From NCBI GenBank assembly GCA_030068145.1, contig JAPJBO010000597.1:1-64000 (forward strand): a stretch of DNA of 64,000 nucleotides. The letters run 5' to 3'. Shown here piece by piece: positions 16,296 through 43,211 of this stretch. A program made the position numbers and the translations under genes. The notes beneath the pieces were generated by a model. It made no database searches and was not told where the DNA came from. It saw nothing but the letters and a program-made list of their open reading frames with translations. Origin of the DNA: Diplonema papillatum (lineage: Eukaryota > Euglenozoa > Diplonemea > Diplonemida > Diplonemidae). Positions within the stretch are counted from its first letter, which is position 1, and every line of letters starts with the position of its first letter.

Positions 16296-16621
16296 CTTGT
16301 ATAAGCACCTTAGCTTTGTAGTGTTCTCGGCAGGTTTTGTTCGTCAGACACAAACGGGAAAGGCTGGGGCACACTACCCCATCGCCCAGTCTCGTGAGGC
16401 TCTGCGGAAATGAAGAAGAAGAAGAGCAAGTTGCTCGAATGAAACTGTCGCCCACCTCAGCTCATCGAAGGTCTTGCATTCGAGGATGACGCCGAAACTA
16501 CAGTGTTTTCTACCACCTCGTTAAACTACCACCACGCAAAGGAAGCCGGAATTGCCGACCCGCTGACCCAGCGACGCATGCGTGCGCACATTCCCGTAAA
16601 TTGCCAGTACAGCGACGCCCG

Positions 16622-16940
16622 TGTGCCGTATGGTACTCTGCGCCGGGGAGGAAAGCAATGTTCACGCTGTGCCGCGCATTTCGTACCTGCGTGGAAGCAA
16701 TATTAATGCTGTGCCGCACATTTCGTACCTGCGTGGAAGCAATATTAACGCTGTGCCGCACATTTCGTACCTGCGTGGAAGCAATATTAACGCTGTGCCG
16801 CACATTTCGTACCTGCGTGGAAGCAATATTAACGCTGTGCCGCACATTTCGTACCTGCGTGGAAGCAATATTAACGCTGTGCCGCACATTTCGTACCTGC
16901 GTGGAAGCAATATTAACGCTGTGCCGCGCATTTCGTACCT
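16622..16940 (+). repeat. 42-bp minisatellite, about 7 copies
   Basis: Unit GTGCCGCACATTTCGTACCT followed by GCGTGGAAGCAATATTAACGCT, six full copies at 16669-16920, a degenerate copy before and a partial copy after. The length is a multiple of three, so long repetitive reading frames open on both strands. The outermost units read GCGCAT where inner units read GCACAT. Confidence 0.9.
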
Positions 16941-17262
16941 GTGTGGAATGTGCACCAGGACGGATTGCCGTGCGGGTGTGTCTGCTGGGTTGGTCACTTC
17001 GTCTTCGTCTTTCTAACATTCATGTCGCCATTTCTTCGTACAGAGAACCAGTCCGTCAAGGAAGGGAGCTTCTTGCCATGGGCTGGAACAAGCATTCCGT
17101 CGGAAGTCTGTCCGGGTTGCTTGTTTTACCCTCTTCGGCGCCGCGCATTCTTCCTTTCGCCGTTCTTTCACATTTCTTTCTCCGCGCCCCTCTGTATTCG
17201 TTCCTTCGTCGTGCAAAGTCCCTTCCTTTTTTTGTTTCTCGTGCTCCGCCCTCGCACGCCCA

Positions 17263-17760
17263 TTGCTAAAAAAGGCGCAGCGGCGCTGGGTCACGCCGCA
17301 GCTCGCAGGGACGCCCAAGACTACACCCTCGAAGGAATGGCAGCGGCGAGAAGTGGAAGGCACGGGCAAGACACGACCGGGCGACGCACCGCCGCGCACG
17401 CGGCGGCGGCAGCCGCCACCTTTGGGACGTCCTAGCGAACGCCGAGAAGAAGAAAGCCGACGCGCAACGGGCGGGGTGCAGACCGGGATCGTCAACCAAC
17501 CGCCCGACAGCGGCTGCAGCGGCAGCAACAGCGGCAGCGACATCGACAGCGGCGACGTCGCGAGGACGCACGGAAGGACCCGCGGCACAGCACCAGTCCA
17601 TTCCCCACGCGGGGGGGGATGGCCGTGGAACCCTCCCCCGGGATGACGAAGGCCGGGGAGAGCCGGGGGCAGTGAAGTAACGAAGCCCGCGAACGGTGGG
17701 TGGTGACCCCTCCGAACAGCCTATCTGGCCCTGGCCCACGCCTGATGCCGCAACCCCTTA
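17263..17760. other. GC-rich block, possible decayed coding or retroelement sequence
   Basis: Composition rises sharply to GC-rich sequence, with open frames on both strands over about 380-570 bp. The plus-strand frame (17263-17646) is Arg-, Pro- and Gly-rich and ends WPWNPPPG. No domain is recognisable. It could be a retroelement 5' part or simple GC-rich repeat. Confidence 0.3.
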
Positions 17761-18776: not shown

Positions 18777-19508
18777 ATGTCGGAGGGAACAGGGGACGCC
18801 TCGTACCAGTCCTTGAACAACAGAGACGTGGGCTATGCTTCGCTGGTGTCTAACGTGGTGGGAATCGCGATAGGCCTCGGCCTGGCGTTGGCGGTGGCGG
18901 GGATCCACACCGGCACTGGCTATTGGGTGGCGCTAGGGATGTGGGCGATCGGCATGGGCGTGTTCCACCAGGGCGAGTTCACGGTCGTCGCCTTGGCGCG
19001 GCCGAAGGACATGGCGGTGAAGTCGTTTTTGCTGCCGGGGCTCGGCGCCTCGCGCGAGTACAACATCGCCATGGCGTGCGGGCTGGCCGAGTTCTCCTCC
19101 GAATGCTTCTTCTTCCCGTCGATGAAGGCATACCCGAGCCTCGCGCTCGCCTGCGGCGCGGCCATGACGGCCTTCGCGGTCATCCGCATCGTCGCGATGC
19201 TGCAGTGCGGGAACAACTTCTCGCACTTGATCGAGACCGACCATCGCCCCGACCACCAACTCGTCACAACCGGTCTGTACGCGTACCTGCGCCACCCCGC
19301 CTACTTCGGCTGGTTTTGGTGGTCGATCTTCTCGCAGCTGACCCTCCTCAACCCAATCAGCGCGCTGCTTTACGCCTACGTCGCGCACAGCTTCTTCTCG
19401 AGCCGCATCCCCTTCGAAGAGGACCAACTCGCCAGCGACGAGTTCTTCGGGCACCAGTACTCGAAGTACAAGAAGAGCGTCCCCACCGGAATACCTCTCA
19501 TCCCGTAG
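18777..19508 (+). CDS. Isoprenylcysteine carboxyl methyltransferase-like protein (ICMT/Ste14 type, 243 aa)
   Basis: Predicted to methylate the C-terminal prenylated cysteine of CaaX proteins (Ras, Rho and similar) in the ER membrane, with S-adenosylmethionine as donor. Hydrophobic helices cover most of the chain (about residues 25-45, 47-65, 118-135, 180-210). The family's C-terminal signature is clear: CGNNFSHLIETDHRPDHQLV, the RHPAYFGW motif (R172, H173, P174), then a Glu pair (E214, E215) and YSKYKKSVPTGIPLIP at the end. Length is near the usual 240-290 residues. I chose the ATG at 18777 because the frame upstream of it is lysine-rich and lies in a repeat; an ATG at 18627 is also in frame. 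Single exon, strong G/C third positions. An internally deleted copy follows at once (19561-19711). Confidence 0.85.
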   Translation: MSEGTGDASYQSLNNRDVGYASLVSNVVGIAIGLGLALAVAGIHTGTGYWVALGMWAIGMGVFHQGEFTVVALARPKDMAVKSFLLPGLGASREYNIAMACGLAEFSSECFFFPSMKAYPSLALACGAAMTAFAVIRIVAMLQCGNNFSHLIETDHRPDHQLVTTGLYAYLRHPAYFGWFWWSIFSQLTLLNPISALLYAYVAHSFFSSRIPFEEDQLASDEFFGHQYSKYKKSVPTGIPLIP

Positions 19509-22274: not shown

Positions 22275-22525
22275 CGACCATATCATAGGCTATCACAGGC
22301 AAGCATAGTCTATCAGCAGTATATCATAGGCTATCATAGGCTATCACCGGCAAGCTTAGTCTATCAGCAGTACAGGCAAGCATAGTCTATCAGCAGTCTA
22401 TCATAGGCTATTATAGGCTATCACAGGCAAGCATAGTCTATCAGCAGTCTATCATAGGCTATTATAGGCTATCACAGGCAAGCTTAGTCTATCAGCAGTA
22501 CAGGCAAGCATAGTCTATCAGCAAG
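22275..22525. repeat. Minisatellite of CTATCA-type units (left arm)
   Basis: Irregular tandem array built from CAGGCAAGCATAGTCTATCA, GCAGTCTATCATAGGCTAT and TATAGGCTATCA. It borders the MITE-end-like sequence at about 22527-22545. The corresponding right-arm array (39090-39425) is longer. Confidence 0.85.
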
Positions 22526-22529
22526 GGCT

Positions 22530-22749
22530 GGACCGGCTCAGAACCACCCGCAATGGGCAGCATCCAGCAGCAGTACCAGCTGCGCAGCGTGTCGTGCAGG
22601 AAGGCGTCGCCGCCGCCCAGCGAGTGCCGGAGCCGGTCGCTGCCCGGCGAACTTGGGCTCCAGCGGGGCGACGGCGAGCTAGAGGCGGAGGCCGCGGCGG
22701 ACGTCGGGGCCGGCGGCTGCGGCTCCGAAAACGGCGCCTTCGACGACAA
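22530..22749 (-). pseudogene. GC-rich exon-like fragment carried in the inverted repeat
   Basis: On the minus strand this reads as a Ser/Pro/Ala-rich stretch followed by GGGDAFLHDTLRSWYCCWML. Base composition is far more GC-rich than its surroundings and matches real exons of this window. The frame runs straight into the minisatellite, so it is probably a captured, non-functional gene piece. The same sequence is in the right arm (38859-39080). Family unknown. Confidence 0.4.
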
Positions 22750-23071
22750 TTCAGGTGTGCTCCGTCTCCAGATATCGAACTCCCTCTTTCCCCGTTACCC
22801 GTTACAATCAGTCGTTCGGTCGTCACGCGTCAGCTTCGAAGATGAGTTGGGAGTACTAGAGGTGCGAGAGAGTGTCACGTGCAAGCTCTTTCTGATAAGG
22901 GCCGAGGAAGGGTGGCTGTACGGTGGCGAACTACAGCGCTCGCAATGTGTCAGCTGACTCCCGCAGACTTGCGGAGAGCCCAGGGGATCTGGTCTTTGAC
23001 GGTAGTCCACGACACTGCCGCCAAAAGCTGATCGGGCAATAAAACCGTCCAAAGGTATCCAACAGCGAGGC

Positions 23072-23275
23072 GACACGAACCCCCAAGTTCCTCCCAGAGA
23101 CGGTCCCTCTCACTTCGAATATTTCCACCTTACCCAACTCAGGTGATATAGAGTAATGAGGCGACATGACCCCTAAGTTTCTCCAGAGGTGGTCCCCACC
23201 CTCGTCTCTCTCTCTCTCTCTCTCTCCCTCTCACGTCAACTATTTTCTACCCTACCCAACTCAGGTGATATAGAG
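23072..23275 (+). repeat. Two of three tandem copies of the globin-kinase 5' flank
   Basis: Copies at about 23072-23155 and 23158-23275 each read: GAGGCGACA, a CCCCAAGTTCCTCCCAGAG-like segment, GGTCC, a pyrimidine-rich tract (second copy with (CT)n), CACTTCGAATATTT-like sequence, then CCCAACTCAGGTGATATAGA. The third copy is at 23564-23681. CTCAG-G after a pyrimidine tract also resembles a 3' splice site, so a 5' UTR intron is possible. Confidence 0.7.
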
Positions 23276-23278
23276 CGG

Positions 23279-23530
23279 ATGGACCAAAAGGCAGCCCTGC
23301 GGGACGCCTGGGCGCACCTCGGGGGGAAGGACCGGTTGAAAGTGCTGGCTGACGCCATGTTCGGTCGGCTGCTGGCGCGCGACGCGGTGGCGCCGCGGAT
23401 GTTCTCCGACCCGTCGGACCTGGCCGCCCAGAAGCGGACCTTCCCCGCCACCCTGCGCCGGCTGCTGGTGGACCCGAACCCGGCACCAGCAAACGGCCAG
23501 TTTCTGCGTTTGGCAGCCTCGCTGGAATGA
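23279..23530 (+). pseudogene. Truncated globin N-terminal copy (83 aa)
   Basis: Near-duplicate of the first 68 codons of the gene at 23684. After the DPNP residues it departs from the parent and stops after 15 unrelated residues. It therefore has helices A to E but lacks the F helix with the proximal haem histidine, and Phe replaces the Tyr at B10. It follows the second of three 5'-flank copies, so it probably arose by unequal duplication. It cannot bind haem normally; whether it is transcribed is unknown. Confidence 0.7.
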
Positions 23531-23563
23531 AAGAAAGCAGTTCAAAAGCACTTAACATTCCGT

Positions 23564-23681
23564 AGCGAGGCAACGTAAACCCCCCAAATTCGTCCCAGAG
23601 ATGGCCCCCGCACTTTAACTCGTCTCTCTCTCTCTCCATCTCACTTCAAATATCTTTAACCCAACTCAGGTGACGTAGAGC
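23564..23681 (+). promoter_or_regulatory. Third 5'-flank copy, immediately upstream of the globin-kinase start
   Basis: Contains GAGATGGCCCCCGCAC, TTTAACTCGTCTCTCTCTCT, CACTTCAAATATC and ACCCAACTCAGGTGACGTAG just before the ATG at 23684. The segment GAGATGGTCCTGCAC...TAACTCGTCTCTCTC at about 62112-62150 is similar. Position and triplication suggest a core promoter/5' UTR. A 5' UTR intron acceptor at CTCAG is an alternative. Confidence 0.4.
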
Positions 23682-23683
23682 GG

Positions 23684-26512
23684 ATGGACCAAAAGGCAGC
23701 CCTGCGGGACGCCTGGGCGCACCTCGGGGGGAAGGACCGGGTGAAAGTGCTGGCTGACGCCATGTACGGTCGGCTGCTGGCGCGCGACGCGGCGGCGCGG
23801 CGGATGTTCTCCGACCCGTCGGACCTGGCCGCCCAGAAGCGGACCTTCCCCGCTGCCCTGCGCCGGCTGCTGGTGGACCCGAACCCGGCTGCCGTCGCGG
23901 CGCTCGCGGCGCGCCACGCGCACATGAACGTCAGGCCCGAGCAGGTCGACGTGTTCATCGACTGCGCCTCCGCCGCCGTCCTCGAAGCCCTCGGCCAAGA
24001 GGCAACCCCCGCCGTGCGCGGCGCACTGACCGCCGCATTCGACACGCTTTCAGCCGACTTCAAGCGGTGCTTGACCGAAGCGCTTGCAGCTCTCGACCCC
24101 ACCGGGTCAGACAGCCCCAGTTTTCGAGACACCACGAGCAGCGACGACGACGACCGCACAGGCGACGCCTGCCCTCCCGGACCACCCGCCAGTCCGGTGT
24201 CGCGGCCTGTCCCCAGTGACCATGCTGGGTACCTATACGAAGTAACCGTCCGGCACGCGGACGCCGCCGCCGGAGCATGCCCGAAGCCGACGGCCGTTCT
24301 GCCCCCCCCGCGCGCCTCGCGGCAACCCCTCGTTGCCGCCGTCGCAACCACCACCACAGGGGTGTCCTCGGCCGCCCCTTCGCGGACTCTGCACGCGGCG
24401 ACGCGCGCAGTCCTGCACCCCGGCTGCCACACGCGCTGCCGCCGGCGTCTGCCATGCGGGGAGCCTGCCCCGGAACCGCTCCCGTTGGAGCCCAGGGGGG
24501 ACGGAGAGACGCTCGCTCCCGGAAGGCCTGCGGACGACGACGAAGACGAGCTGGCCGCGCTGGCCGCGGCGCCGGAGGGCCACCCGCAGCCGCAGCTGCC
24601 GGCGGGCCTCGACCGGGTTGCGGCGGGCGCCCGCGTCGTGCGGAAGCGGCGGTGGCTGGAGATCAAGGGGCAGTACCTCTTCTACTACACGGCCCTCGGG
24701 CGTACCCCGCTGCGCGTCGTCGACCTCTCGCGTGCCGTCGTCACGGAAAATGACGACGTCGGCTTCAGCTGGGCGCTGCACCTGCTCAGCGAGTCGGAAG
24801 AACACCCGAAAGTGGTGTACACTCTCGGCGCCGACGGCGACCACGACAAGGAATTGTGGGTCGTCCGCCTGAAGCGAGCCTGCGCGCGCTTCAGCTTCGT
24901 CCGGCCCGTCCAGGTGGGCATGCGCGTCACTGTCGACGTGCGAGGCGACGCGGCGGAGATGAAGCCCGGGTGCGTGCTGTGGTCGGGGTCGCTGCAGGGC
25001 ACCACCCTTTCTTGGAAGGGCAAGGGCCTGTGGATCGGCGTCGAGCTTGACGACTGCATCGAAGGCGGCCATTCCGGCACCTTCCGCGGCGTCCGCTTCT
25101 TCGAGTGCTCCCCCGGGCACGGCGTTCTGCTGCCGGCGTACCGCGTCCGCATCCTGCTGCCGGACGAGGAGAAGGACAAGTTGAAGATCACCTCGGGGAG
25201 GCACCGGCTGCAGCACTACGAGCCGCTTGCAGTCCTCGGCTGCGGGTCCTTCGGGTGCGTGTACAAGGTGAGGGACCGGGTTTCGGGCGCGATTTACGCG
25301 TGCAAAGTCTTGCAGAAGGGAGCGCTGGTGCGGGAAGGCCAAGTGTCGAACTTGCACCGAGAACGCAGCATCCTCCTGTCGGTCTCCCACCCGTACATCG
25401 TCAAGCTGCACTCCGCGTTTCAAACCGAAAACCGCGTGCTGCTGCTCTTCGACTTCCTGTCGGGCGGCGAGCTCTGGTTCCACCTCTCCCGAGCGTCGCC
25501 CAGCGACACCGAAAAGGACCTCTCCTCGAGGTACGCTCTGTCGTCGTGCCCGTCGAAGGAGAACGACGAAGGCGCTAGCCCGGAGGGAGCCGGCGGTGGC
25601 GAAGGTGGAGGAGGAGGGAGCTGCGGCGGCGGGGAGCCGCCGAAGACGGGTTTTTTTTCGGAGCGGGTTGCGAGGTTCTACTTCGCCGAGGTGTGCTCCG
25701 CGGTCGCGCACCTCCACCTGGCGGGTGTCATGCATCGCGATTTGAAGCTCGAGAACCTGGTCCTTGATCACGCCGGCCACGTGGTTCTCACCGACTTCGG
25801 GTTTGCCAAGCGGGCCGACCCTGGCGACCCGGGTTCAAACAGCGGGCACCCCCTCGCGACCGCACAGTGCGGGACGCTGCCGTACATGGCGCCGGAGATC
25901 CTCGAAAAAAACGGGTACGGGAAGGAGGTCGACTGCTGGGCCCTCGGAGTCGTGCTGTTCATCATGACCACGGGTTGCTACCCGTTCTGGGCGTCGCAGC
26001 CGGACGGTTCGCTCGACCGGGAGGCGACCATCCGGCAGATCCTCGAGGAGAGGGACATCAAGAAGGGCGAGTTCCCGGACGCGGTTCCGCTTTCGCCGGA
26101 AGCGGTCGACCTGATTTGCAGGCTGCTGGACAAGGACCCGGGCCGGCGGCTGGCCGACTTCGGCGTCCTGCGCCGGCACGCGTGGTTCGCGGGGTTCGAC
26201 TGGCCCGCGTGCGAGAAGCGGCGGCTGGCGCCGCCGTTCGTGCCGGACCTGAAGGGGTCGAACACGAAGTACTTCAGCAAGAGGCAGCAGCTCCGCTCGG
26301 GCTTCGCTGAGCTCGCCCTGGCCTCCAAAGCGGATCCGACCCTCCGCCCGCCGACGGACTTCGCCGGGGCCCAGCCGCGCACCCCCGCGGACTGCCCGTT
26401 CGCGCACTTCAACGCCGTCCGCCACCCTTCCTCGACTCTGTCCGAAGACTTCGCGCGCGACACTCTCTCGCACCTCCAGTACTCCCAGGTCATCTTCGAA
26501 GCTGACGCGTGA
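23684..26512 (+). CDS. Globin-PH-CAP-Gly-AGC-type serine/threonine kinase fusion (942 aa)
   Basis: Single-exon gene. Residues 1-137: globin of the bacterial/flavohaemoglobin (M) type, with W11, B10 Tyr28, CD1 Phe42, likely E7 Gln51 and proximal F8 His78 in LAARHAHMNVRPEQ. Residues ~138-310: Pro/Ala/Asp-rich linker. Residues ~317-405: PH domain (RKRRWLEIKGQYLFYY to ELWVVRLKRA). Residues ~409-491: CAP-Gly domain (GKGLWIGVELDD, then GTFRGVRFFECSPGHGVLLP); its usual GKNDG loop reads EGGHSG. Residues ~512-850: kinase with LGCGSFGCV, Lys541, Glu560, HRDLKLEN (D686), DFG (D704) and APE (737-738 for PE), plus a Gly/Ser-rich insert at ~617-655. The tail has PPFVPDLKG and NTKYF, as in AGC kinases. All catalytic residues are present, so it should be active. 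The inferred role is haem-ligand-controlled phosphorylation at lipid and microtubule surfaces; ligand and substrates are unknown. The gene's 5' and 3' flanks are both multiplied. Confidence 0.88.
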   Translation: MDQKAALRDAWAHLGGKDRVKVLADAMYGRLLARDAAARRMFSDPSDLAAQKRTFPAALRRLLVDPNPAAVAALAARHAHMNVRPEQVDVFIDCASAAVLEALGQEATPAVRGALTAAFDTLSADFKRCLTEALAALDPTGSDSPSFRDTTSSDDDDRTGDACPPGPPASPVSRPVPSDHAGYLYEVTVRHADAAAGACPKPTAVLPPPRASRQPLVAAVATTTTGVSSAAPSRTLHAATRAVLHPGCHTRCRRRLPCGEPAPEPLPLEPRGDGETLAPGRPADDDEDELAALAAAPEGHPQPQLPAGLDRVAAGARVVRKRRWLEIKGQYLFYYTALGRTPLRVVDLSRAVVTENDDVGFSWALHLLSESEEHPKVVYTLGADGDHDKELWVVRLKRACARFSFVRPVQVGMRVTVDVRGDAAEMKPGCVLWSGSLQGTTLSWKGKGLWIGVELDDCIEGGHSGTFRGVRFFECSPGHGVLLPAYRVRILLPDEEKDKLKITSGRHRLQHYEPLAVLGCGSFGCVYKVRDRVSGAIYACKVLQKGALVREGQVSNLHRERSILLSVSHPYIVKLHSAFQTENRVLLLFDFLSGGELWFHLSRASPSDTEKDLSSRYALSSCPSKENDEGASPEGAGGGEGGGGGSCGGGEPPKTGFFSERVARFYFAEVCSAVAHLHLAGVMHRDLKLENLVLDHAGHVVLTDFGFAKRADPGDPGSNSGHPLATAQCGTLPYMAPEILEKNGYGKEVDCWALGVVLFIMTTGCYPFWASQPDGSLDREATIRQILEERDIKKGEFPDAVPLSPEAVDLICRLLDKDPGRRLADFGVLRRHAWFAGFDWPACEKRRLAPPFVPDLKGSNTKYFSKRQQLRSGFAELALASKADPTLRPPTDFAGAQPRTPADCPFAHFNAVRHPSSTLSEDFARDTLSHLQYSQVIFEADA

Positions 26513-26940
26513 CGACCGAACGACTGCGAGAAATCTCGTAGCTTGTGATCCCTCCGTTTTGCTGGCGTTCAAAGACCAGATCCCCTGGGCTCAGTCCGCA
26601 AGTCTGCGGGAGTCAGCTGACACATTGCGAGCGCTGTAGTTCGCCACCGTGCAGCCACCCTTCCTCGGCGCTTATCAGAAAGAGCATGCACGTGACACTC
26701 TCTCGTACTCCCAACCCATCTTCGAAGCTGACGCGTGGCGACCGAACGACGGCAAGAAATCTCGTAGCTTGTTATCCCTCCATTTTGTCCTGGCGTTTAG
26801 AGACGAGACCCCCTGGGCCCAGTCCGCACAGAGAGACGCAGTCTGGGGAGTCAGTTGACACATTGCGCTGTAGTTCGCCAGTGTGCAACGCGACACTCTC
26901 TCGCACCAATGTTCCCAAGTCATCTTCGAAGCTGACGTGA
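26513..26940 (+). repeat. Two degenerate tandem copies of the gene's 3' end
   Basis: The sequence encoding RDTLSHLQYSQVIFEADA with its stop and flank recurs at about 26680-26760 and 26885-26960. Each copy is preceded by the same 3'-flank block (AGACCAGATCCCCTGGGCTC, GAGTCAGCTGACACATTGCG, GCTGTAGTTCGCCA). The same unit sits in both arms of the inverted repeat, giving five copies in the window including the functional gene end. Confidence 0.8.
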
Positions 26941-26960
26941 CGGCCGAACGACTGCGAGCA

Positions 26961-27455
26961 TAATTCGTAGCTTGAGAACCTTCCGTCTTGTTCCGGCGTT
27001 CAAAGCCCCAGACCCAGGGGGGCTCTAGTCTGCGGGAGCCGGCACACACAGCAGCTGCGTCAGCATGCTTCGCCACTCAGGACTTCAACAATTTGACGCT
27101 TTAGTTGAGTACCAAGAATTCCAACACGTCAGTGCTTGAGCTCTTCAGCGCTCCGACACTACGCACGTCAACACACATCAAAGACCTTCAACATTTTGGC
27201 ACACCAACAAGCGGCGCCTACACAACTCTTACCCACACCCGTCCACGCATCTTGAACAGAGGCGACAGTATTGTGCGAGATTGGCTACGATCTTCAGGCA
27301 GAATTCCCGCGTGTTTACGGAGGCGTTCCGCCGGCAGACATCGTTCGACGTCATGCCTTGCGCAGTACCTCAGCTCAACCCCGATTGTTTTGGCGTTCTT
27401 CAATCAACGAAAAGGCTCCCCGTGTCCCCTCCAAACACGGTGCAAGCAAATCCAC
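26961..27455. other. No feature seen
   Basis: Intergenic; frames short and without bias. Confidence 0.35.
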
Positions 27456-32311: not shown

Positions 32312-38197
<5,886 letters not shown>

Positions 38198-38575
38198 TGC
38201 AGCTGGACGATCGCCGGTGTCCGCAGGCACACAGTGTGAGGCTTCGTCTTTCGGGTGTCTTCCGTGCTGTCCACACGGAACTTCTTACCTCGGGCTTATT
38301 GTTGGCAAGGCCGCGTTGCCGCCCTCAAACCTCGCACTTGTGTGCTTGCTAACAAGAACGGCAAAAACGCAAACCAAGCTGGACCACTAGACTGTGCCAC
38401 GAAAGATACGAATCCCGATAACACGCCGTACATAGAACATGAGCCTGCAGAATTGAAGCCGCCCGAATAAGACAGTTTTTCGGGAGGGGGAGTTGCCCAC
38501 ACGCGCTTTTCACACTCAGGTACTTGCAAACACGCGCACGTGTTTCCCAACGGGAATGCTCAGCCGCTTGCAACA

Positions 38576-40257
38576 GTTTTATTGCCCGATCAGCTTTTGG
38601 CGGCAGTGTCGTGGACTACCGTCAAAGACCAGATCCCCTGGGCTCTCCGCAAGTCTGCGGGAGTCAGCTGACACATTGCGAGCGCTGTAGTTCGCCACCG
38701 TACAGCCACCCTTCCTCGGCCCTTATCAGAAAGAGCTTGCACGTGACACTCTCTCGCACCTCCCAACTCATCTTCGAAGCTGACGCGTGACGACCGAACG
38801 ACTGATTGTAACGGGTAACGGGGAAAGAGGGAGTTCGATATCTGGAAACGGAGCACACCTGAATTGTCGTCGAAGGCGCCGTTTTCGGAGCCGCAGCCGC
38901 CGGCCCCGACGTCCGCCGCGGCCTCCGCCTCTAGCTCGCCGTCGCCCCGCTGGAGCCCAAGTTCGCCGGGCAGCGACCGGCTCCGGCACTCGCTGGGCGG
39001 CGGCGACGCCTTCCTGCACGACACGCTGCGCAGCTGGTACTGCTGCTGGATGCTGCCCATTGCGGGTGGTTCTGAGCCGGTCCAGCCCTTGCTGATAGAC
39101 TGCTGATAGACTATGCTTGCCTGTACTGCTGATAGACTAAGCTTGCCTGTGATAGCCTATAATAGCCTATGATAGACTGCTGATAGACTATGCTTGCCTG
39201 TGATAGCCTATAATAGCCTATGATAGACTGCTGATAGACTATGCTTGCCTGTACTGCTGATAGACTAAGCTTGCCTGTGATAGCCTATAATAGCCTATGA
39301 TAGACTGCTGATAGACTATGCTTGCCTGTGATAGCCTATAATAGCCTATGATAGACTGCTGATAGACTATGCTTGCCTGTACTGCTGATAGACTATGCTT
39401 GCCTGTGATAGCCTATGATATGGTCGGTGTAAGCTTGAGTGTGGCAGGTCGGCGCTGAACCAATGTGTCAAAACAGGAGAACAAAGAAAGAAGATGCGAC
39501 GGCGGGCGCTGGCTCAGCTCTGCCAAGAACCGCTCGGTTGAGCACGCTCAGAGTAGCCGCCTTCTCTTGCGTGTGGGCGGCCCCGTGACGTGTTGATTAT
39601 ATTGGTTGCGAAGGGGGGGCTGGCGGTTCGGGTCGGCAAGCCGCGTGCGTGCGCGTTTTGAGTGCGCGTCGCGGGCGACACAGCAACAAACAGGGCGCGA
39701 TGGGGCAGCAAGCACCTTCCGCCGGGAATCGGGGCGGGGGGGGAGAGGAGGCAGCGGCACTCGCTTTGTGTCACAGCTAGAAAAGCTGCTTAAACGCGTG
39801 AGGTGCAGCGGGGGGTGGGCAGCGCCACTTCTTTGCGAGCTGCGGAGATCGTTCTTCCAGGGCCGGCGGGGGCCTTCTCTTTGCCTGGAGGTGGGGATAC
39901 GACTACTTCGCAGCGTTGGGTTGCGACACGGGAATCTGCGAGCTCGTCTTAGGTTTCGTTTGCGGCACAGCTGGTGTTGGATCTTCTCTCTCCCCCCGGT
40001 ATCACGATGCGCGGCCCCCGTGTTCCAGCTGTGTTCCGTCCCCCCCCACTACCTGGTTTGGTGTGGTGCACGTGAGATGACTCGAATATGCTCAGCCTCC
40101 AGCTCTGATACTCATCGCGAGCATGTGCTGTCTCCCTTCCATCTTGGTCATCAAGATTCCTACAGCTAGCGGACTAGTTCGCCTGTACTTAACAACAAGC
40201 GCGCGCCAGCAAAGTTTCACACTTCCCAGCTTCCTATCGGTCGGCCCCTCTGGGGGG
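38576..40257 (+). repeat. Right arm of the large inverted repeat (about 1.7 kb)
   Basis: Inverted copy of 21443-23045. Order from 38576: globin-kinase 3'-end unit (38630-38815), GC-rich exon-like fragment (38859-39080), MITE-end-like TGAGCCGGTCCAGCCC, minisatellite (39090-39425), then the shared region up to CCCCTCTGGGGGG at 40257. Beyond that the two sides are unrelated. Confidence 0.9.
39090..39425. repeat. Minisatellite in the right arm
   Basis: Units CTGATAGACTATGCTTGCCT and GTGATAGCCTATAATAGCCT with GATAGACTGCTGATAGA; longer than the left-arm array. Confidence 0.85.
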
Positions 40258-40869
40258 AGGCGGTCGAATGCCTCAGACTGCGTTGTCGACTCCCGTTTCG
40301 ACTACGTGTGGCTTGCTGACCATTCTCGATTGGGTGGACCATCTTGAAAAGAGAGCAGCAGCAGGAGGAGGAGAAAAAAAATTCCCCCAAAAAACCCCCT
40401 CTCCAATGGGCGTGTGGGAGTCTGTGTTCACCCGACCCTTACCGACCCCAGTTCGACACACGATGCCCTCTTGTCCTCCTCTTGGGCGGAAGGACTTTCG
40501 GCGCCCCGTCTTTCGTTGAATCGAGAATGTCCCGACTTTTCCCTCGTCAAGCTCACTAACCACAGGGGTCCGAAAAGGTTTCTGGGGTACAGGTTGACGT
40601 TGAATGCCACCGGAACACCGGCTTACAGAACAACATGCCGCAGAAAAAGTTGTTGCAGAGAAAAGTAATTGCAACAGTAGCATGTGTGGCCGACCTAGAT
40701 GCGTAACTGCACGGGCAATTCCTGCTGTAGTGCTAGCATCGACACGTCCGGCCACAACATCAGCGATGGAAACTACATCTAAGGATACGCAAATTGCCCA
40801 ATAGCAACACTGCTGAGGCAGCGAAGAGAAATAGCCTCGACACGTACTTAGTACGTTAGAAGCATGAAT
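40258..40869. other. No gene seen
   Basis: Flank of the inverted repeat. A minus-strand frame runs through it into the 18S-derived sequence and is therefore not credible. Confidence 0.4.
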
Positions 40870-41063
40870 GATATCTAAACCTGTCAATGAACACAATTGG
40901 TGGACAAGTCTGGTGCCAGCACCCGCGGTAATTCCAGCACCAATAGCGTATATTAATTTGCTGTTAAAAAGCTCGTAGTTGGATCCAGTGGAATGGCCTG
41001 CCACGCGTGTGCGACCAATCGCACTTCGCCTTTGAATATCGAAAGGGATACTAAAATAGGAGG
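40870..41063 (+). pseudogene. 18S (SSU) rRNA-derived fragment
   Basis: Carries the 530-loop region: CAAGTCTGGTGCCAGCACCC, GCGGTAATTCCAGCACCAAT, AGCGTATATTAATTT, then GTTAAAAAGCTCGTAGTTGG. Two near-universal positions are changed (CAGCACCCGCGG for CAGCAGCCGCGG; CAGCACCAATAG for CAGCTCCAATAG) and bases are missing before GTTAAAAAG. The V4 region is very short, after which ATACTAAAATAGGA resembles the next conserved block. This is a decayed fragment, not a working gene. Confidence 0.8.
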
Positions 41064-42149: not shown

Positions 42150-43211
42150 ATGGGCTGCACGGAATCGACCGAGTACAAATCAAAGGCGCTCGAGAGATCT
42201 TACGCGAAAACGCCGAGCAAGCAGAAGCTGGTCATCGAGCACCCGGTGAAGCCGTTGTTCCTGGGTTCAACCGTACTCAGCGACAGTACGACGTCACCGG
42301 AGTCCCTGCCGTTGACGCTTACATCGAGCGTGGGTTCGCTGAGTACCACGCTTCCAGGAATGCCCGCGACGGTCACACTTGGCAACCAAACGTTCAACGT
42401 GCATGACTTCCTCGGGCAAGGCACGTATGCTGTCGTCCACAAGGTCACCGACCAGCAAACCGGCACCGAGTACGCGCTCAAGTCTTTCAACAAAGACAAG
42501 ATGACTGACAGCGACCTGAACAACGTCGCCAGGCGCGAGGTGGACCTCCTCAAGAAAATCGCGGGCGCCACGGAAGCGCCGCAGATGTGGCATCCGAACG
42601 TGTGCAACATGCACGCTTCAGGTGAAGACCACCAGTGGCTGCACATGGTCCTCGAGCTCGCGGAGTCGACCGACTTCCAAGACGTTCTCAAGGAGCGCAA
42701 GCTGAGCGAAGACGAGGTTAAGACCTACTTCATGGAGCTCATGGAAACCCTCGACTGGCTGCACTCTTCCCGCGGAGTTTGCCACCGAGACATCAAGCCC
42801 AGCAACCTCCTCCTGTCATTCGACGGGCACCTGATGCTGACTGACTTCGGCCTGGGTGATTCGGTGCTGTCCAGGTCCGGCCACACCGAGCAAAGAGAGT
42901 TGTGCGGAACGCTCGACTTCGTGGCGCCGGAGGTTGGCCAGAGTGCGTACGACGGCAGAAAGGCGGACGTCTGGTCGTGCGGTGTGACGCTCTTCCAGCT
43001 GCTCACCGGGAAAATGCCGTGGTCTTCGAGCAGCAAGACGTACCGCCGCAAGCAGATCAGCGAGGCCAACTACCGGTCGTCGGCGCTCTCGAAGTTCTCA
43101 CCCGAGGTCCAAGACCTCGTCTCCCGGCTCCTGACCGCCGATCCCGAATCCCGCCCGACCGCTTGCGAAGTCAGGCGCCACCCGTGGATCGCCCGCGTGT
43201 CCTCCTTCTGA
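42150..43211 (+). CDS. N-myristoylation-signal serine/threonine protein kinase (353 aa)
   Basis: Begins MGCTES: Gly2 with Ser6 is a typical N-myristoylation signal and Cys3 a likely palmitoylation site, so the kinase is expected at membranes. Residues ~10-80 are Ser/Thr-rich and probably disordered. Kinase domain ~83-350: LGQGTYAVV (88-96), ALK Lys111, an RREVDLL helix, HRDIKPSN (212-219), DFG (232-234), GTLDFVAPE (APE 259-261), DVWSCGVTLFQLLTGKMPW and HPWI at the end. All catalytic residues are present. The fold is closest to CAMK-like or LKB1/CAMKK-like kinases by eye; the subgroup is not certain. It lacks EF-hands or other C-terminal domains. Single exon, and the start codon has an AAAATGG context. 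A MITE begins 60 bp after the stop. Confidence 0.85.
   Translation: MGCTESTEYKSKALERSYAKTPSKQKLVIEHPVKPLFLGSTVLSDSTTSPESLPLTLTSSVGSLSTTLPGMPATVTLGNQTFNVHDFLGQGTYAVVHKVTDQQTGTEYALKSFNKDKMTDSDLNNVARREVDLLKKIAGATEAPQMWHPNVCNMHASGEDHQWLHMVLELAESTDFQDVLKERKLSEDEVKTYFMELMETLDWLHSSRGVCHRDIKPSNLLLSFDGHLMLTDFGLGDSVLSRSGHTEQRELCGTLDFVAPEVGQSAYDGRKADVWSCGVTLFQLLTGKMPWSSSSKTYRRKQISEANYRSSALSKFSPEVQDLVSRLLTADPESRPTACEVRRHPWIARVSSF

Follow-up and report, generated by a model that had tools for sequence, protein, structure and literature searches.

In the diplonemid Diplonema papillatum, a single gene codes for one polypeptide in which an AGC-type Ser/Thr kinase is preceded by a globin, a PH domain, and a CAP-Gly domain, and as far as could be found this architecture is real, conserved, and apparently undescribed; globin-coupled signalling enzymes are known, and an AGC-type Ser/Thr output for a globin was not found reported. 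Its four-domain coding stretch lies on the plus strand at 23684–26512 of the window analyzed here, a 64,000-nucleotide stretch (contig JAPJBO010000597.1, positions 1 to 64,000), where an earlier note, made from the sequence alone, had called attention to it. At the sequence level, the protein is one chain with a set domain order, a conserved proximal His and distal Gln, and an intact kinase active site. On balance, we favor reading it as one of a family of diplonemid kinases, AKT/RSK/SGK-like and probably anchored at a membrane, that carry a haem globin as a built-in sensor.

The four domains proposed by the earlier note were recovered by Pfam profiles in a single open reading frame (ORF) of 942 residues. 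The Globin (27.6 bits vs. a cut-off of 22; residues 28–124), CAP-Gly (50.3 vs. 26.5), and Pkinase (206.1 vs. 31.7) models pass; the PH model stays below its cut-off (21.4 vs. 25.1; residues 321–400). The deposited D. papillatum protein P0002 (1014 aa) is 100% identical to the ORF over the full 942 residues of the latter. Its deposited name, "RAC family serine/threonine-protein kinase-like protein," leaves the globin unmentioned.

Two protein searches returned 11 further proteins with the same globin–PH–CAP-Gly–kinase order, giving a family of 12 (P0002–P0006 and P0239–P0245). The first search scored 8000 candidates, and the best 120 of its 770 matches gave P0002–P0006; the second, with the globin to CAP-Gly part of P0006 as query, scored 7615 candidates and gave 9 matches, adding P0239–P0245. 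The second search, which covers only proteins of ~445–1415 aa that share 5-residue words with the query, returned no relative outside the family. A five-member profile search listed P0002 and not the other four members; absence there says little. Five of the 12 bear EukProt transcript-type names (P0004, P0006, P0241, P0244, and P0245), another five are encoded on ENA contigs 0.67 to 3.3 Mb long (P0003, P0005, P0239, P0240, and P0243), and D. papillatum contributes P0002 together with a second paralogue, P0242. Because 12 proteins keep one order, five of them under transcript-type names, the fusion is not an accident of gene modelling; a chance fusion was rejected on the same order in the 11 homologues.

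Across the family, the Pkinase model passes in all 12 members, CAP-Gly in 11 (not P0243), the whole PH domain in 10 (not P0002 or P0005), and Globin in nine, with P0243 scoring exactly at the cut-off. Four trees separate eight proteins, including P0242 and P0244 (Sspe 2), from P0002, P0003, P0004, and P0005. Support for the split is 100/99 for the full chain, 94/93 for PH plus CAP-Gly, 100/99 for the kinase, and 99/97 for the globin, whose tree contains long branches flagged by the program; rooting was at the midpoint only, which places P0004 with the eight. D. papillatum and Sspe each have one member on either side of the split, for which the simplest reading would be a duplication before the two diverged, provided that this branch holds the root. 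Globin and kinase divergence are closely correlated (r = 0.94 over 66 pairs), although shared descent alone would explain much of this. As sampled here, the family appears confined to two named or probable diplonemids and sequences grouping with them, and to comprise at least two paralogous lines.

The globin domain occupies ORF residues 1–140 (23684..24103, plus strand), and a profile built from the 12 globins places it among known haem proteins. Compared with solved globins, the profile matched 6wk3 (1.4e-11), 3wfw (2.8e-11), 1cqx (2.2e-10), 7dih (2.5e-9), and 1vhb (4.2e-9). Vertebrate haemoglobins match as well, with engineered tandem human haemoglobins scoring high through double matching. 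No sensor- or protoglobin-type chain is named among the best 60 of 91 profile matches, and the Protoglobin model stays below its cut-off in the D. papillatum ORF (11.7 bits vs. 25). These comparisons point to an F-type 3/3 globin, closest to flavohaemoglobin-type (F) globins and not to bacterial sensor globins; the earlier comparison with bacterial globin-coupled sensors is wrong in this respect, since their globins belong to another family. Flavohaemoglobins use a Tyr ten residues after F8 as part of their proximal relay; the corresponding residue is Val, Leu, or Ala in all 12 members and Tyr in none. Because this Tyr is missing and no reductase model was found in the Pfam scan of the ORF, identity as a flavohaemoglobin is excluded.

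Three of the 140 scored globin columns—Trp11, His78 (F8), and Phe91—are invariant in all 12 members, and ten more are kept in 11, including Gln51 (E7), His80, and Cys94. At E7 the exception is P0004, with Val. CD1 (Phe42) is Phe in 11 members and Tyr in P0243, as counted by sequence pattern with P0003 read by eye; B10 (Tyr28) is Tyr in seven. A profile alignment sets the family's B10, CD1, E7, and F8 positions against Tyr, Phe, Gln, and His of 3wfw. The four pocket residues first named for the D. papillatum chain recur across its homologues, B10 least uniformly, and the globin is likely to bind haem through His F8. As a separate observation, Cys94 (23963–23965) lies near the globin G helix and could have a redox role.

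The AGC-type Ser/Thr kinase (residues ~517–835; 25232..26188, plus strand) contains an insert at residues ~604–652. As claimed at the outset for the D. papillatum protein, its catalytic residues are complete: The catalytic Lys, Glu, HRD Asp, Lys, Asn, and DFG Asp are present in 12/12. The best solved relatives are RSK, AKT, and SGK, and because these score almost equally the comparison singles out no AGC subfamily. An AGC C-tail follows (26189..26512, plus strand), recognized in alignment by PPFVP...NTKYF and an FxxF pair (26399–26410); the NTKYF-type motif and the FxxF pair are found in all 12 aligned members, with the C-tail of P0240 looking mis-modelled. Ten members have Thr two residues before CGT, which we take to be the AKT Thr308 position, and three have Ser/Thr directly after FxxF. 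P0002 departs from AKT/RAC at both places, with Ala for the loop Thr and Asn after FxxF. Separately, six members (P0003, P0005, P0241, P0242, P0243, and P0244) end in Asp-Thr, often preceded by Phe and a hydrophobic residue; this ending, noted on comparing homologue C termini with the end of the gene (26498–26512), could be a C-terminal ligand, conceivably of the unusual CAP-Gly domain that the family itself carries.

Between globin and kinase lie the PH and CAP-Gly domains. Homologue alignment starts the PH domain near residue 177 and extends it to ~402 (24212..24889, plus strand), with ~130 inserted residues separating strands 1 and 2 in D. papillatum. AKT-type phosphoinositide-binding PH domains combine a strand-1 Lys with a strand-2 Arg-x-Arg. 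By eye, the alignment shows [K/R]-x-[R/K] in strand 2 of 10 members and, at the strand-1 place that we take to be equivalent to AKT Lys14, Lys in none, with Lys/Arg one residue earlier in six. The AKT-type motif thus appears to be present only in part, and the proposed lipid-binding role is left weak, the strand-2 motif speaking for it and the missing Lys against it. The CAP-Gly domain (residues 412–487; 24917..25144, plus strand) has GGHSG in place of GKNDG, the motif of microtubule-binding CAP-Gly domains. Because GKNDG is absent in 12/12 (position 2 is Gly in 12; position 3 is His in nine and Asn in one), the description of this domain as a microtubule-binding module is unsupported.

These features suggest a route from haem to phosphorylation. 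All members except P0245 have a Met-Gly start (in P0243, at residue 13), and myristate together with the PH domain would put the kinase at a membrane, a placement that we consider reasonably probable. The globin would there read a haem ligand or the oxidation of the iron, with O2 as the first candidate and NO or redox state as the second. Ligand binding or oxidation would alter the packing of the globin on the PH–CAP-Gly–kinase unit, and the signal would pass via the PH–CAP-Gly block to switch the kinase; the AKT PH domain, which holds its kinase off, is the model for such gating. By analogy, we give roughly even chances to a kinase switched by haem ligand or oxidation state through globin repacking. 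In favor of a sensor we count the invariance of His F8 while globin identity falls to 20% and the example of HemAC-Lm, in which a euglenozoan already couples an O2-sensing globin to an enzyme, as far as the available part of its description goes (PMC4534343). More tentatively, this could be the first haem-globin-gated Ser/Thr kinase, one that would carry O2, NO, or redox state directly to AGC phosphorylation at the membrane within one molecule and with no cyclic nucleotide or histidine-kinase step; the two paralogues kept are perhaps tuned differently through Tyr or Phe at B10.

Several observations weigh against a membrane-placed haem sensor. In the D. papillatum ORF, a truncated-globin model likewise exceeds its cut-off (23.7 bits vs. 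21), scoring lower than the Globin model, and the D. papillatum globin on its own gives a best single-globin match of only E = 0.005. The Globin model falls short in P0005 (12.2 bits) and finds no match in P0006, yet in both proteins the alignment runs across the domain and includes His F8. B10 is Phe in 5/12. Gln E7 and His F8 stand 27 residues apart in P0002, a spacing that we take to be about 5 residues shorter than in VHb, so that assigning E7 requires a gap in the EF loop and is less sure than assigning F8. The globin has evolved much faster than the kinase (pairwise identity 20–71% vs. 53–89%). The PROSITE PS00008 myristoylation pattern fits 6 of the 11 Met-Gly starts and not that of P0002, and P0002 and P0003 have Ala at the activation-loop Thr position.

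The alternative that survives best, although we hold it to be unlikely, is that what the globin reads is haem supply or redox state, through loading or iron oxidation, and not a gas; loading would then switch the kinase in the manner of the haem-regulated eIF2alpha kinase (HRI), but by means of a true globin. The Cys kept near the G helix in 11 members would suit this arrangement, whereas the distal pocket, with Tyr at B10 in 7/12 and Gln at E7, is of a kind typical of O2-binding globins. HRI itself shows that a haem-binding kinase of this logic exists, according to the part of PMC1457004 available here.

A little less probable again is a globin fold that is free of haem and acts as a docking or dimerization module, leaving the kinase under membrane lipids and upstream kinases only. 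Non-haem globin folds occur in bacterial stress proteins, and the fast divergence of the domain, the failure of the Globin model in P0005 and P0006, and the variable B10 would all follow readily; His F8 in 12/12 and Gln E7 in 11/12 are hard to account for without haem, and CD1 is likewise Phe in all but one member, which has Tyr. That the globin is an NO dioxygenase brought to the membrane or to kinase targets, with no gating of the kinase, we consider improbable: The top profile match is indeed a nitric oxide dioxygenase (6wk3), with flavohaemoglobins next, but the chain has no reductase domain and the relay Tyr is absent in 12/12.

A merger of separate genes in the gene model is exceedingly improbable, for although repeats crowd both ends of the gene, and the genome paper cautions that models can be too long and that adjoining repeats can produce spurious introns (PMC10161547), all four domains lie within one uninterrupted exon and the order is kept in 11 homologues, five of transcript type, so that doubt is limited to exon 1. 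The start at 23684 given earlier probably needs revision, as P0002 has 72 more N-terminal residues than the ORF, most of them from 22553–22754 spliced to 23670. Positions 22553–22756 match P0002 residues 1–68 at 100%, and a GT-AG junction at 22754/23670 yields P0002; among 12 equivalent junctions, the one bordered by GT-AG was chosen. The resulting plus-strand model has a probable exon 1 (22553..22754; Met-Gly N terminus, 67 codons and one base, followed by a GT donor), a probable GT-AG intron (22755..23669), and an exon 2 (23670..26512) encoding the globin, PH, CAP-Gly, kinase, C-tail, and stop. Exon 1 is favored because Met-Gly starts recur across the family, and the chain probably begins at 22553. 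Against exon 1 stands the repetition of its surroundings: 22401–23048, exon 1 included, has a ~97% inverted copy at 39223–38573, and a 100% copy of the P0002 exon 1 residues lies at 39060–38857. No Rfam match was found at the globin–kinase gene.

Other copies surround the gene. The start of the globin exon has a partial tandem copy at 23254..23484 (plus strand; 97%, 8 of its 231 bases being different), whose frame stays open until a stop at 23530; it is of the kind described by the genome authors, in which the 5′ coding region of a D. papillatum gene is partly repeated in tandem (PMC10161547). As a second full globin this copy was rejected, since it ends before the F helix and meets the stop. 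At B10 the copy encodes Phe instead of the gene's Tyr (base 23361), a substitution that also distinguishes family members from one another. Within the intron, 22809..22999 (minus strand) repeats the 3′ end of the gene in inverted orientation; the pre-mRNA could fold back by pairing this piece with 26421–26750. Degenerate direct repeats of the 3′ end occupy 26421..27050 (plus strand), in and after the last codons. Because the C-tail aligns with homologue C termini, these repeats are read as copies of the gene's end, and a repeat-derived tail was rejected. The inverted copy at 38573..39223 (minus strand) lies 16 kb off, beyond a kinesin gene, and begins with the same 68 residues as exon 1. Minus-strand ORFs across the gene (e.g., 24233–25780, 515 aa), for which no homologue search was made, are taken as overlapping GC-rich frames.

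Elsewhere in the window, the plus strand carries a second kinase gene at 42150–43211 (353 aa; Pkinase 209.7 bits) whose MGC start is a possible myristoyl/palmitoyl site, an isoprenylcysteine carboxyl methyltransferase (ICMT) family protein at 18777–19508 (87.8 bits), and a kinesin motor fragment at 33492–34202 (208.5 bits) that is likely one exon of a longer plus-strand gene. A eukaryotic small-subunit rRNA fragment, far short of full length, lies at 40773–40946 (plus strand, 100.9 bits). An ORF of near-identical repeated units of TFRTCVEAIL type at 16601–17269 (plus strand) is probably a tandem DNA array and not a gene, and a long CA/TG simple repeat with strong strand skew spans 34500–35300.

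Among the papers listed from the open-licence literature, we found no description of a globin–Ser/Thr kinase protein, in keeping with the earlier claim of novelty and without amounting to proof of absence, and no paper linking "globin" with "diplonemid"; the word "globin" is absent from the main text of the D. papillatum genome paper (PMC10161547). The available part of a 2006 census places eukaryotes outside the globin-coupled sensors and trypanosomes outside the globins altogether (PMC1457004), to which HemAC-Lm is a euglenozoan exception in print (PMC4534343, available part). If the sensor reading is true, a conserved diplonemid globin–kinase family would mean a further route in eukaryotes, running directly from a gas or redox signal to phosphorylation. 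Diplonemids are among the most abundant marine microeukaryotes (PMC10161547), and D. papillatum is genetically tractable, as reported in the available part of PMC8611851, so that the globin–kinase can be tested within D. papillatum itself.

Several known systems come close to the family. Among its kinase relatives, AKT (RAC) also has an N-terminal PH domain; neither it nor RSK or SGK has a globin or CAP-Gly domain. Flavohaemoglobins, VHb, and single-domain F globins (1cqx, 1vhb, 6wk3) are among the profile matches, with His F8 aligned; flavohaemoglobins carry a reductase, whereas the diplonemid globin is joined to a kinase and lacks the Tyr ten residues after F8. The second-best profile match, 3wfw, is a globin–Roadblock/LC7 fusion in which an F-type globin is set on a non-enzyme domain, with no kinase. 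HRI is not an AGC kinase. It too is a Ser/Thr kinase of eukaryotes, with a haem-binding N terminus such as the diplonemid proteins probably have, but in the available text that region is not recognized as a globin (PMC1457004). The nearest published systems are HemAC-Lm and, in bacteria, AfGcHK of Anaeromyxobacter. As a globin-coupled sensor, AfGcHK has an S family globin. Its N-terminal haem globin controls a kinase, whose autophosphorylation is raised by O2, but the output is a bacterial histidine kinase (PMC8697598, available part). HemAC-Lm of Leishmania major, compared by description only, is likewise euglenozoan and joins a globin to an output enzyme in one soluble chain, an O2-sensing adenylate cyclase; its output is cAMP, and the available part of the source mentions no kinase, PH, or CAP-Gly domain (PMC4534343).

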